A stretch of 64,000 nt of DNA from Melaminivora suipulveris (GTDB taxonomy: Bacteria; Pseudomonadota; Gammaproteobacteria; Burkholderiales; Burkholderiaceae_C), in contig NZ_CP027667.1 of NCBI RefSeq assembly GCF_003008575.1, positions 2,876,001-2,940,000 on the forward strand. The letters run 5' to 3'. Shown here piece by piece: positions 25,729 through 43,992 of this stretch. Both the position numbers and the translations under genes were made by a program. Positions within the stretch are counted from its first letter, which is position 1, and each line of letters opens with the position of its first letter. Under the pieces are notes generated by a model. The model did not search any database. It was not told the origin of the DNA and saw nothing but the letters and a program-made list of their open reading frames with translations.

Positions 25729-25745
25729 GCAAAGCATTTGCTTGC
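25729..25745. promoter_or_regulatory. Predicted TetR operator upstream of the tetR gene
   Basis: GCAAAGCATTTGCTTGC, with the palindromic core AAGCA-TT-TGCTT at 25732-25743, 34 bp before the regulator ATG. The same core occurs upstream of the acyl-CoA dehydrogenase operon (36836-36847) and of livH (43979-43990). Autoregulation is inferred. Confidence 0.6.
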
Positions 25746-25777
25746 TAAAAATAGTGCCGGTTGCTATCGTCTGGCCC

Positions 25778-26494
25778 ATGCCGACGTCCAAATCCAGTCT
25801 CCTGGAGCGCGCCGCCCAAGCCGCAGCGGACGTGGCGGGCGCGCCGGCGCCGGACGCAGCGCCCGAGGACAGCCCCGCGCGCCGCCCGCGCGGGCGCCCG
25901 CGCAAGAGCGCCGATGCGCTGGACGACGGCAACCGCCGCCGCGCGCTCATGGACAAGGCCGCGTGGCTGTTTCGCACACAGGGCTACGCGGCCACCAGCA
26001 CGCGCGACATCGCCGCCGCCGCCGGCATGCACAGCGGCTCGCCTTACTACCATTTCAAGAGCAAGAGCGCCTTGCTGCACGCAGTCATGGCCGAGGGCAT
26101 GGCCATGGCGCTGCAGAGCCAGCGGGACACGCTGGACACCCTGCCGGCCGGTGCCGGCGCCCGCGAGCAGCTGCGTGTGCTGATCCGCCACCACTTTGAG
26201 ATCCTGCTGGGCCCGCGCAGCGGCTTCATCCCCGTGATGTTGTACGAATGGCGCTCGCTCACCGCCGCGCAAAGAAAGGATGTGGCGCGCATCAAGGACG
26301 CCTACGAGGCCGCCTGGATGCCGTCGCTGCAGGCGCTGGCGCAGGACGGCGCGCTGCAGGCCGAGCCGGCCGTGGCGCGCCTGCTCATCTTCGGCGCGCT
26401 GAACTGGGCCGTCAGCTGGTATTCCCCGAGAAAAGGCCGCTCGCTCGATGCGCTGACCGGGCAGGCCATGGATTTGTTTGTCCGAAAGGATTGA
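25778..26494 (+). CDS. TetR-family transcriptional regulator of the acyl-CoA island
   Basis: A 238-aa repressor-type regulator. After a low-complexity, AT-hook-like N-terminus (RRPRGRPRKSADA) the TetR helix-turn-helix spans about residues 50-95: KAAWLFRTQGYAATSTRDIAAAAGMHSGSPYYHFKSK. The rest is an alpha-helical ligand domain; the ligand is unknown, but acyl-CoA thioesters are likely given the neighbours. Start is ATG at 25778, downstream of a palindrome shared with two other promoters in the island. The stop overlaps the ribosome-binding region of the SDR gene, which begins 2 bp later, so the regulator is the first gene of a five-gene + strand unit. Confidence 0.92.
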   Translation: MPTSKSSLLERAAQAAADVAGAPAPDAAPEDSPARRPRGRPRKSADALDDGNRRRALMDKAAWLFRTQGYAATSTRDIAAAAGMHSGSPYYHFKSKSALLHAVMAEGMAMALQSQRDTLDTLPAGAGAREQLRVLIRHHFEILLGPRSGFIPVMLYEWRSLTAAQRKDVARIKDAYEAAWMPSLQALAQDGALQAEPAVARLLIFGALNWAVSWYSPRKGRSLDALTGQAMDLFVRKD

Positions 26495-26495
26495 T

Positions 26496-27440
26496 GTGAG
26501 CGTGTCTTCCCCTTCTCCTTCCTCTTGCGCCAGCGGCTACCGCTCGGTCTTCGCGCCGGGCCTGCTGGCCGGCCAGGTCGTCATCGTCACCGGCGGCGGC
26601 TCGGGCATCGGCCGCTGCAACGCGCACGAGCTGGCGCACCTGGGCGCGCAGGTGGTGCTGGTCGGGCGCAAGCCGGAAAAGCTCGCCGCCGTGCAGGCCG
26701 AGATCGAGGCCGACGGCGGCCTGGCCAGCACGCACGCCTGCGACATCCGCAGCGAGGACGGCGTGGTGCAGCTGGTGCAGCAGGTGCTGGCCGCGCATGG
26801 GCGCATCGATGGTCTGGTCAACAACGCCGGCGGGCAGTTCATGTCTCCGCTGGAGAGCATCTCCGCGCGCGGCTGGGAGGCCGTGGTCAACACCAACCTG
26901 ACGGGCGGCTTCCTGCTGGCGCGCGAGTGCTTCAAGCAATGGATGGCGGCGCACGGCGGCGCGATCGTGAATATCGTCGCCGACATGTGGGGCTCCATGC
27001 CCGGCATGGGCCACAGCGGCGCGGCGCGCGCCGGCATGGTCAGCTTCACCGAGACGGCGGCCGTGGAGTGGGCGCGCGCCGGCGTGCGCGTCAACGCCGT
27101 GGCGCCGGGCTACATCGCCTCCAGCGGCATGGACAACTATCCGCCCGAAGCCGCCGAGCGCCTGCGCGCCATCCCGCGCACCGTGCCGGCCGGGCGCATG
27201 GGCACCGAGGCGGAAGTGTCCGCCGCCATCACCTTCCTGCTCAGCCCGGCCGCCAGCTTCATCAGCGGCACCACGCTGCGTGTGGATGGCGCGAGACCGC
27301 AGTCGCGCACGGGCTGGGGCATGCAGCTGCCGGACGAGGCGACGCGGGAGCGCCCGGCCGTGCGGCCGTTCGAGGGCTTTCACCGGGCGCAAACGCCGCG
27401 CGTGTTCGCCAACGCCGCCAGCTCCGCGCCCAGCGCCTGA
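26496..27440 (+). CDS. SDR oxidoreductase, PECR-like (trans-2-enoyl-CoA reductase type)
   Basis: Short-chain dehydrogenase/reductase of 314 aa. The Rossmann motif is VIVTGGGSGIGR near residue 30 and the NNAGG motif near 109. Where most SDRs have YxxxK, this protein reads GHSGAARAGMVSFTETAAVEW, as in human peroxisomal trans-2-enoyl-CoA reductase (HSGAARAG), and LLSPAASFISG also matches that group. A role in reducing an enoyl-CoA is therefore likely but unproved. Start is GTG at 26496 with AAAGGA five bases upstream, immediately after the tetR stop. The C-terminal 40 residues are a loose Arg/Ala-rich tail. Confidence 0.87.
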   Translation: MSVSSPSPSSCASGYRSVFAPGLLAGQVVIVTGGGSGIGRCNAHELAHLGAQVVLVGRKPEKLAAVQAEIEADGGLASTHACDIRSEDGVVQLVQQVLAAHGRIDGLVNNAGGQFMSPLESISARGWEAVVNTNLTGGFLLARECFKQWMAAHGGAIVNIVADMWGSMPGMGHSGAARAGMVSFTETAAVEWARAGVRVNAVAPGYIASSGMDNYPPEAAERLRAIPRTVPAGRMGTEAEVSAAITFLLSPAASFISGTTLRVDGARPQSRTGWGMQLPDEATRERPAVRPFEGFHRAQTPRVFANAASSAPSA

Positions 27441-27472
27441 AGCGCCCGCACGACCAGCGGGAACGAACCGCC

Positions 27473-42927: not shown

Positions 42928-42934
42928 ATCAATG

Positions 42935-43077
42935 GACCCAGCTGTTTGAAACCGACGCGCTCCAAACCAGTGGACGCCGCGCAAGGGCCGCCCCGCCGCG
43001 CTGGCGTCGTCCCCCTGCATGCGGAGCGCAGCGAAGCGAGAGCGGGGGGATGGAGCGAAGCGACATAGGGGGGTGTC
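42935..43077 (-). repeat. Intra-operon repeat C (between livH and livM)
   Basis: In the transcribed sense: CCCCCCTATGTCGCTTCGC, CCGCTCTCGCTTCGCTGCGC dyad, AGGGGGACGACGCC, then GGGGCGGCCCTTGCGCGGCG. Same layout as repeats B and D, with sequence drift. Confidence 0.8.
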
Positions 43078-43953
43078 TCATACTTTCTTACGGAGCTTCT
43101 CGCCGAACAGGCCGTTGGGTTTGACCATGAGCATCAGCAGCACCACGATGTAGGCGGCGATGTCCTTGAAGCCTTCGGGCAGGTAAAAGCCCGACAGCGA
43201 CTCGATCACGCCGATGATGAGACCGCCGACTATGGCTCCCGGCAGGCTGCCAAAGCCGCCCACCACGGCTGCGGGGAAGGCCTTGAGGCCGATGAAGCCC
43301 ATGTTGGCGTGCACGAAGGTGATGGGCGCCAGCAGCAGTCCGGCAATCGCCGCCACGGCGGCAGCCAAACCCCAGGCCAGGCCGTTGAGGCGCTGCACCG
43401 GGATGCCCATGTAATAGGCGGCCAACTGGTTCTGTGACGAGGCCTGCATGGCCACGCCCAGGCGCGTGTAGCGGAACATCACGTACAGCACCGCGCACAG
43501 CAGCAGCGTCGCGCCGATCACCACCAGCTGCTCGCTGGCCAGCACCAACGAGCCCAGCTGCATGACCTGGTCCTTGTAGGGCACGGGCAGGGTGTGCGTC
43601 TCGGTGCCGAAGCCGGGGATCATGGTGATGGCGCCGCGCAGCACGTAGCCGATGCCGATGGTCAGCATGACAATGGAAAACGCCGGCTGCCCCAGGATGG
43701 GCCGGATGACCACGCGCTCCAGCAGCACCCCGAAAGCCGCCACCGCTGCTATGCTGGCCAGCACCGCGACCCAAAATGGCATGCCCAGCACCTGCATCAG
43801 CACCAGGCCGGCAAAAGCGCCGAGCATCATCAGCTCGCCCTGGGCGAAACTGACCGTCTCGGTGGCCTTGTAGATGAGCACGAATCCCAGCGCGATCAGC
43901 CCATAGATGCACCCCTGCGCGATGCCGCTGACCAGCAGTTGGACGAATTGCAC
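43078..43953 (-). CDS. ABC transporter permease LivH type
   Basis: First membrane subunit of the liv-type importer, 291 aa. It opens VQFVQLLVSGIAQGCIYGLIALGFVLIYKATE and has FAQGELMMLGAF and GGFGSLPGAIVGGLIIGVIE, all typical of LivH. Start chosen is GTG at 43953, preceded by AAGGGAG at the right distance; an ATG at 43995 would overlap the TetR-type palindrome and adds residues not seen in the family. It is the first gene of livH-livM-livG-livF-ligase-livK. The shared palindrome is 24 bp upstream. Confidence 0.92.
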   Translation of the reverse strand: MQFVQLLVSGIAQGCIYGLIALGFVLIYKATETVSFAQGELMMLGAFAGLVLMQVLGMPFWVAVLASIAAVAAFGVLLERVVIRPILGQPAFSIVMLTIGIGYVLRGAITMIPGFGTETHTLPVPYKDQVMQLGSLVLASEQLVVIGATLLLCAVLYVMFRYTRLGVAMQASSQNQLAAYYMGIPVQRLNGLAWGLAAAVAAIAGLLLAPITFVHANMGFIGLKAFPAAVVGGFGSLPGAIVGGLIIGVIESLSGFYLPEGFKDIAAYIVVLLMLMVKPNGLFGEKLRKKV

Positions 43954-43976
43954 AAGCACTCCCTTGCGTATTTTCA

Positions 43977-43992
43977 CAAAGCAGTTGCTTTG
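43977..43992. promoter_or_regulatory. Predicted TetR operator upstream of livH
   Basis: CAAAGCAGTTGCTTTG, a 7-bp-arm palindrome (CAAAGCA/TGCTTTG). Its core AAGCA-N2-TGCTT matches those before tetR and the acyl-CoA dehydrogenase. It lies between divergent livH and the aldehyde dehydrogenase gene and could affect both. Confidence 0.6.

Follow-up and report, generated by a model that had tools for sequence, protein, structure and literature searches.

We analysed a 64,000-nucleotide stretch of the Melaminivora suipulveris genome (contig NZ_CP027667.1, positions 2,876,001 to 2,940,000; hereafter the window, in which coordinates count from its first letter). It encodes a TetR regulator (25778-26494) among genes for acyl-coenzyme A (acyl-CoA) metabolism and a liv-type ATP-binding cassette (ABC) importer. 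Three transcription units share one operator and, together with the TetR, very probably form one small regulon, as judged from sequence and from the co-conservation of operator and TetR. In the mechanism that we propose, with a probability of roughly 0.82, the TetR would bind a 30-bp operator, ATTTTTACAAAGC-N4-GCTTNGTAAAAAT, at three promoters. It would thereby repress its own operon (tetR, a short-chain dehydrogenase (SDR), the acyl-CoA dehydrogenase (ACAD) ACAD2 and two acyl-CoA ligases), an ACAD1-thiolase-fadB operon, and an operon for the liv-type importer with a built-in acyl-CoA ligase. At tetR the operator would cover the -35 box and at livH the presumed -10/start region, which in either case would keep RNA polymerase from the promoter. 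A leaderless mRNA is predicted for tetR. Release of the repressor would be triggered by the imported acid in its acyl-CoA form, and this acid is most likely branched, isoprenoid-like or medium/long-chain.

The original prediction, made from the letters of the window, named the palindrome AAGCA-N2-TGCTT as the regulatory unit. We found exact cores at 25732-25743, 36836-36847 and 43979-43990 and no other exact copy in the window. Two cores had been called identical; those at 25732 and 36836 are reverse complements of each other and therefore the same duplex sequence; the core at 43979 differs from them in its central two bases. The distance from core to start codon is 34 bp for tetR (ATG at 25778), 31 bp for ACAD1 (ATG at 36804), and 25 or 19 bp for livH, depending on whether the likely GTG (43953) or an alternative GTG (43959) is used. 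The core is real, but it is only the centre of a longer operator, of which about 30-32 bp are conserved. Alignment of the upstream regions of orthologues revealed that each core is the centre of the 30-bp palindrome given above. In the tetR promoters of relatives (55 non-redundant loci), the conserved block is TATTTTTACAAAGCA..tGCTTGCTaAAAATAAa, and the 19 bp upstream of this block are almost unconserved.

Under a first-order Markov model, 0.045 exact cores are expected in the window and 2.6 in the genome, and the probability of at least three in the window is 1.5e-5. The genome (3,754,020 bp, one contig) contains five, three of them in the window. The number of exact cores outside it (C1:2586404 and C1:3492257) fits the chance expectation, and no acyl-CoA gene was recognised by eye among the open reading frames of the 3-kb loci around them. 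Searching the genome with the 30-bp pattern ATTTNNACNAAGCNNNNGCTTNGTNNAAAT at up to 3 mismatches, a cut-off below which weaker sites were not sought genome-wide, returned exactly three matches, all of them the window sites; a reversed-pattern control gave none. This pattern had been derived from the window sites and related ones. For a fairer comparison we trained a matrix on 48 distinct tetR operators, all from other species, with the Melaminivora locus L172 left out. This matrix ranked the sites of tetR, ACAD1 and livH first (59.5, 48.1 and 44.3 bits), and the next independent position scored -11.6 bits. One-strand scans of 30 Markov-generated windows reached at most 8.5 bits. The whole-genome scan that the original prediction had asked for thus placed all three extended sites at these units, and the palindrome is not spread over unrelated promoters.

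The operators and the genes of the three units are as follows, with those of each unit in transcriptional order.

25723..25752, + strand: operator 1 (30 bp), before tetR; 59.5 bits, 2 mismatches, right half overlapping the -35 box
25742..25770, + strand: predicted tetR promoter; -35 TTGCTA at 25742-25747, 17-bp spacing, extended -10 TGCTATCGT at 25762-25770
25778..26494, + strand: tetR, with TetR_N and TetR_C_24 domains (Pfam); ATG 7 nt after the -10; placed in a clade by the tree
26496..27440, + strand: SDR (PF13561/PF00106); possible GTG start 1 nt past the tetR stop
27473..28651, + strand: ACAD2; NCBIfam ACAD matches, 71% to its counterpart in the cluster of the relatives
28708..30261, + strand: acyl-CoA ligase AMP1; NF004837 over cut-off
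30321..31916, + strand: acyl-CoA ligase AMP2 (PF00501, PF13193); start set by eye, 30291 also possible
36827..36856, - strand: operator 2 (30 bp), before ACAD1; 48.1 bits, 3 mismatches
35638..36804, - strand: ACAD1; profile match, orthologues in relatives
34347..35555, - strand: acetyl-CoA C-acyltransferase (thiolase); NF006090 over cut-off
32020..34191, - strand: FadB/FadJ-like hydratase/3-hydroxyacyl-CoA dehydrogenase; profile match, start set by eye
43970..43999, - strand: operator 3 (30 bp), between livH and a divergent aldehyde dehydrogenase gene; 44.3 bits, 1 mismatch
43078..43953, - strand: livH permease; profile match, likely GTG start after AAGGGAG
41851..42927, - strand: livM permease, from sequence; adjoins livH in relatives too, start set by eye
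40846..41688, - strand: livG ATPase; profile match, start set by eye
40049..40849, - strand: livF ATPase, from sequence and relatives
38183..40045, - strand: FadD-type acyl-CoA ligase within the transporter operon; best match NF038343, below its cut-off
36945..38114, - strand: livK-type periplasmic binding protein (PF13458); start set by eye

The queries for AMP2, FadB and livK included some in-frame codons upstream of the likely start, which left the matches unaffected.

To follow the operator across relatives, we used a set of 40 genomes, our own included. Ten of them carry a TetR orthologue, at 54% identity or more (G000, G002, G003, G004, G006, G009, G013, G016, G019 and G023). With the pattern at up to 3 mismatches, at least two sites were found in 9 of these 10 genomes versus none of the 30 without the orthologue, two of which (G017, G038) have a single site, at 3 mismatches. 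Fisher's test, which ignores shared ancestry, gave p = 3.7e-8 for at least two sites and 1.9e-6 for at least one. In G016 and G023, the second site sits on another contig. Three further genomes (G071, G268, G290), which lie outside the set used to derive the pattern, carry a site at tetR (1-2 mismatches) and at ACAD1 (3-4 mismatches); in a fourth (G310), which has ACAD1, there is neither a TetR match at E<=1e-20 nor a site.

A second set comprised named relatives, the best 80 of 506 from a scan of GTDB species genomes. They belong to Acidovorax, Melaminivora, Curvibacter, Hydrogenophaga, Comamonas, Simplicispira, Polaromonas, Ramlibacter, Rhodoferax, Caenimonas and Giesbergeria, plus metagenome-assembled genomes. 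The two sets overlap, as L208/G268, L238/G013 and L172/G002 are the same organisms. One named locus (L166) begins inside tetR and was left out. An operator with up to 4 mismatches was present at tetR in 66 of the 79 testable loci, in 49 distinct sequences; even 6 mismatches or fewer were reached by only 2 of 1480 random 510-bp windows. The remaining 1.33 Mb of flank held only two more sites at up to 4 mismatches, both beside livH (L200, L201).

Of the other two units, ACAD1 is the more constant. A site precedes it in 10 of the 11 TetR-bearing genomes that have the gene (G000, G002, G003, G004, G006, G009, G013, G023, G071, G268, G290), with up to 4 mismatches in eight and with 6 in G004 and G023; in G013 the site (1 mismatch) stands before the thiolase gene and not before ACAD1. 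A livH orthologue occurs in 10 TetR-bearing genomes, five of which have a clear site with 0-1 mismatch (G000, G002, G003, G004, G006). None of the orthologues examined in TetR-less genomes carries a site; these include three genomes with ACAD1 (G025, G030, G310) and three with livH (G011, G015, G025) that lack a TetR match. ACAD1 was matched in 27 of 299 genomes of the order, and a regular expression, which is not a hidden Markov model and could miss some, detected no TetR within about 1.5 kb on either side of the 29 loci. The tetR operator is thus the most constant member, ACAD1/thiolase comes next and livH is variable, so that the conservation expected by the original prediction holds firmly at tetR and ACAD1 and only in part at livH.

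Given a shared operator that is restricted in this genome, at up to 3 mismatches, to these units and is co-conserved with the TetR, we consider it very probable that the TetR acts as a local repressor and controls its own gene. The idea of a single local regulon under this TetR has withstood both findings named in advance as speaking against it, since the extended palindrome is not spread over unrelated promoters and is kept at the orthologous units, in part only for livH. In a related observation, G251, which belongs to another family, encodes a TetR with 37-42% identity, and both this tetR and ACAD1 (L126, L151) carry the AAGC-N4-GCTT core with other flanks. The core may thus be older than the AT-rich arms.

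Promoter anatomy at tetR and livH would suit repression rather than activation, the mode that we infer for the three units. We compared 64 loci, namely the window and the 63 named loci with up to 3 mismatches. In these, the right half-site doubles as the -35 box, beginning with TTG in every locus and reading TTGCTA in 44. This double role would explain why the tetR operator is asymmetric, with GCTTGCT instead of GCTTNGT. An extended -10 follows 16-18 bp past the -35, with TGn in 63 of the 64 loci and TATCGT in 32. Our assignment of the tetR promoter draws on this TGn and on the columns conserved in the 55 non-redundant loci. The first in-frame start after the -10 is an ATG, only 6-9 nt away, in 63 of the 64 loci, and none of these 63 shows a Shine-Dalgarno-like motif. 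The tetR mRNA is accordingly predicted, from these spacings, to be leaderless in 63 of the 64 loci. At livH in our own genome, reading by eye suggests an upstream TTGACA as the -35 and the left arm of the operator as the likely -10; this -35 is not conserved in the other genomes aligned.

The regulator itself belongs to the TetR family by its PF00440 (TetR_N) and PF17932 (TetR_C_24) domains. Its predicted fold has nine helices (mean predicted local distance difference test score, pLDDT, 80.6, from a 12-sequence alignment), and its neighbours in the PDB are TetRs. The closest folds include PfiT, AibR with isovaleryl-CoA, BkaR, PfmR, Fad35R and FadR with stearoyl-CoA, among others. AibR, which responds to isovaleryl-CoA, and the Bacillus subtilis FadR, seen in complex with stearoyl-CoA, are acyl-CoA-binding TetRs that share the fold but only 24-28% sequence identity with the window TetR. 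They have other operators and other gene sets. An acyl-CoA is a plausible inducer, in keeping with the modelled fold.

In a midpoint-rooted tree of 37 TetRs, which did not include AtuR, the window TetR (TetR-A) falls in a clade of 19 (support 95/92). The sister group (98/95) is TetR-B of the same genus, which heads an AtuA-containing cluster at C1:1.67-1.68 Mb and has its own site, TTCAAGCAACCGCTTGATT. In our own genome this locus (C1:1672000-1691000, L049) is an AtuA/geranyl-CoA-carboxylase-type cluster headed by TetR-B, with a related but different operator. A search of plasmids for the TetR returned 8 records, every one below 60% identity.

Which acid is imported can be narrowed by looking at the relatives, whose tetR operon mostly reads SDR-carboxyltransferase-ACAD-hydratase-biotin carboxylase-ACAD-thioesterase, or nearly so. 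Orthology of ACAD2 in relatives was established with the query A_ACADe, 71% to the window ACAD2. In the available sequence of the 80 named loci, a carboxyltransferase is present in 64 and an AtuA-type gene in 6. The carboxyltransferase of G006 scores 598 bits against the geranyl-CoA carboxylase beta subunit versus 470 against that of methylcrotonyl-CoA carboxylase. A published residue rule separates the two enzymes, the methylcrotonyl type having Phe (PMC4673880; this and the other papers are cited for those parts of their text that were available). At the position to which that rule assigns Phe in methylcrotonyl-CoA carboxylases, our reading of the alignment gives Gly for G006. Of 62 homologues searched with a motif for this stretch, 52 matched, all with Gly; the other 10 fell outside the expression. 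In Thauera linaloolentis, moreover, linalool-negative mutants were hit in branched-chain amino acid transporters and in a TetR 38% identical to AtuR (PMC4847356). There, as may hold for our regulon, a liv-type transporter and an AtuR-like TetR are tied to terpenoid use; the available part of that study differs in defining no operator or regulon, and its authors left the role of the TetR open.

Together, the geranyl-CoA-carboxylase-type genes of the relatives and the Thauera mutants favour a branched, isoprenoid-like or medium/long-chain acid, for which the odds are perhaps even; the regulon itself is far better supported. The substrate, an unidentified carboxylic acid in the original prediction, can be narrowed to this likely class by the genes in most relatives' tetR operons. 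Tentatively, and with the odds rather against it, the TetR clade might represent a Comamonadaceae regulon for isoprenoid-like/branched long-chain acids, from which the carboxylase was lost here and in G004, so that the system turned to another acid. If so, part of the Comamonadaceae would have a dedicated liv-type ABC importer for an isoprenoid-like/branched acid, and operator, regulator, importer and beta-oxidation genes would have been kept as the carboxylase step disappeared from the tetR operon.

The terpenoid and branched-acid catabolism of this bacterial family is, to our knowledge, little mapped, and the proposed regulon would offer a testable operator, a regulator and a list of 14 target genes for an environmental group. 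It would also link a liv-type ABC importer, usually annotated as an amino-acid transporter, to organic-acid uptake. A tetR predicted to be leaderless, with its operator on the -35 box, would make a clean case of autoregulation.

Several observations weigh against this interpretation. Picking the best of three offsets for the -10 biases it towards the consensus. At tetR, the site of G019 has 4 mismatches and was therefore missed at the cut-off of 3, and the remaining 13 of the 79 named loci have a less certain match (5-6 mismatches). In 10 of these 13, tetR may lie inside an operon, since a thioesterase-type gene on the same strand ends 0.7-1.0 kb before it. The livH operator is inconstant: the site is weak in G019 (5 mismatches), G009 has the core only, and none was found within the 400 bp examined in G013, G016 and G023. 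Among the named loci, livH lies in the available sequence of three, with a site in two (L200, L201) and none in L199. In G009, moreover, livH shares its promoter region with a second TetR that faces it (L055, C12 17998-18699) and is about 42% identical. Finally, the carboxylase genes are absent from the window tetR operon, where they are missing between SDR and ACAD2; the congener G004 (L060) likewise lacks them at this position. As for the second TetR of G009, a variant operator lies between it and livH, and it looks as though this TetR had taken over the importer promoter.

Considering its relatives, the window TetR might simply be the orthologue of AtuR, which represses acyclic-terpene catabolism in Pseudomonas. 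We consider this unlikely, although several features point that way. Its C-terminal domain is shared with the sister TetR-B at the head of the AtuA cluster, relatives keep the geranyl-CoA-carboxylase-type beta subunit in the operon (the 598 versus 470 bits of G006) and an AtuA-type gene in 6 of the 80 named loci, and the operator of G013 contains the AtuR 13-mer AGCAAGCGCTTGG. However, the AtuA-linked TetR of our genome is a separate one, and no AtuA-type gene is among the 14 identified here. AtuR, moreover, acts through a pair of 13-mers spaced by about 40 bp (PMC9973270), whereas the promoters here carry a single 30-bp site each, with 4 bp at its centre. The window promoters thus do not show the paired 13-bp inverted repeats of AtuR, and the exact gapped pattern of the double site did not occur in 369 genomes of the class, among which the carriers of atu clusters were not established. 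The AtuR/RdmA systems of Pseudomonas (acyclic-terpene and diffusible signal factor (DSF) catabolism) resemble the window regulon in placing a TetR over an acyl-CoA carboxylase cluster with AAGC/GCTT inverted repeats and a geranyl-CoA-type carboxylase, the latter found here in relatives. They differ in the two 13-bp sites and in that the window regulon adds the liv importer and a fad-type operon and has no AtuA. The window TetR is an AtuR-like TetR with a probable new regulon of a familiar kind, laid out like a standard autoregulated TetR catabolic regulon, of which we found no description in the open-licence literature.

We also considered FadP, the predicted TetR of fatty-acid degradation in Burkholderiales, with the palindrome as its site. 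FadP is a betaproteobacterial TetR over beta-oxidation operons and is reported for Comamonadaceae (PMC5343134, PMC12543098), and in G009 the TetR adjoins ACAD1. In the window, ACAD2 lies two genes downstream of tetR. However, another TetR of our genome (C1:1145823-1146611) heads a run of an ACAD (598 aa), a FadB'-like gene and a thiolase, an arrangement that resembles the described place of Ralstonia fadP beside an acyl-CoA dehydrogenase gene (PMC12543098). This TetR has a TetR_C_13 instead of a TetR_C_24 domain and is 17% identical to the window TetR, and the surrounding 14 kb contain no AAGC-N4-GCTT. An average FadP regulon comprises 17.9 genes, with about 8 sites in each genome (PMC5343134), against the 3 sites of our far smaller regulon. 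On synteny, domain and identity, with FadP known here by its description and not by the Ralstonia sequence or motif, we set this identity aside as highly improbable.

Even harder to sustain is an identity with LiuQ, the TetR of branched-chain amino acid utilisation in some betaproteobacteria (PMC5343134), a comparison likewise made by description and not by motif. The regulator class fits, and the relatives' operons hold liu-like genes (carboxyltransferase, ACAD, hydratase, biotin carboxylase), but their carboxylase is of the geranyl rather than the methylcrotonyl type. The regulons also differ in size: LiuQ regulons (54 sites and 73 genes in 14 genomes) average 5.2 genes and 3.9 sites (PMC5343134), versus 14 genes behind 3 sites here. 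That the palindromes reflect chance, or a repeated mobile/structural element without a regulatory role, is next to inconceivable: the two further exact 12-mers in the genome do match the chance expectation, but promoter placement, conservation across genera, near-restriction to TetR genomes and the matrix test all speak against it. Two other candidates were discarded, the Acidovorax TetR of PMC4204640, which is another TetR with a pqiA cluster, and PA3973 (PMC9736018), which has an unrelated motif.

Returning to the TetR-controlled units of the window, two neighbouring features touch on their boundaries.

36900..36920, - strand: terminator-like hairpin GCCGCC-TTCG-GGCGGC-TTTTT between livK and operator 2, seen in the sequence
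44101..45537, + strand: aldehyde dehydrogenase (PF00171), divergent from livH

Since the hairpin and its T-run separate the two minus-strand units, ACAD1 and the genes behind it are likely transcribed from a promoter of their own; a terminator scan did not list this hairpin. The aldehyde dehydrogenase gene may be a further target of the livH operator. A promoter-like TTCACA-18-AATAAT (43973-44002) overlaps operator 3, and the promoter scan at this gene is weak, with one found versus 0.8 expected.

Two more TetR_C_24 regulators were observed elsewhere in the genome. One (C1:1864282-1864986, L083) is divergent from a second run of liv transporter, acyl-CoA ligase and hydratase genes. The other (C1:1538197-1538817, L084) follows genes that look like paa genes, so that this regulator is possibly PaaR.

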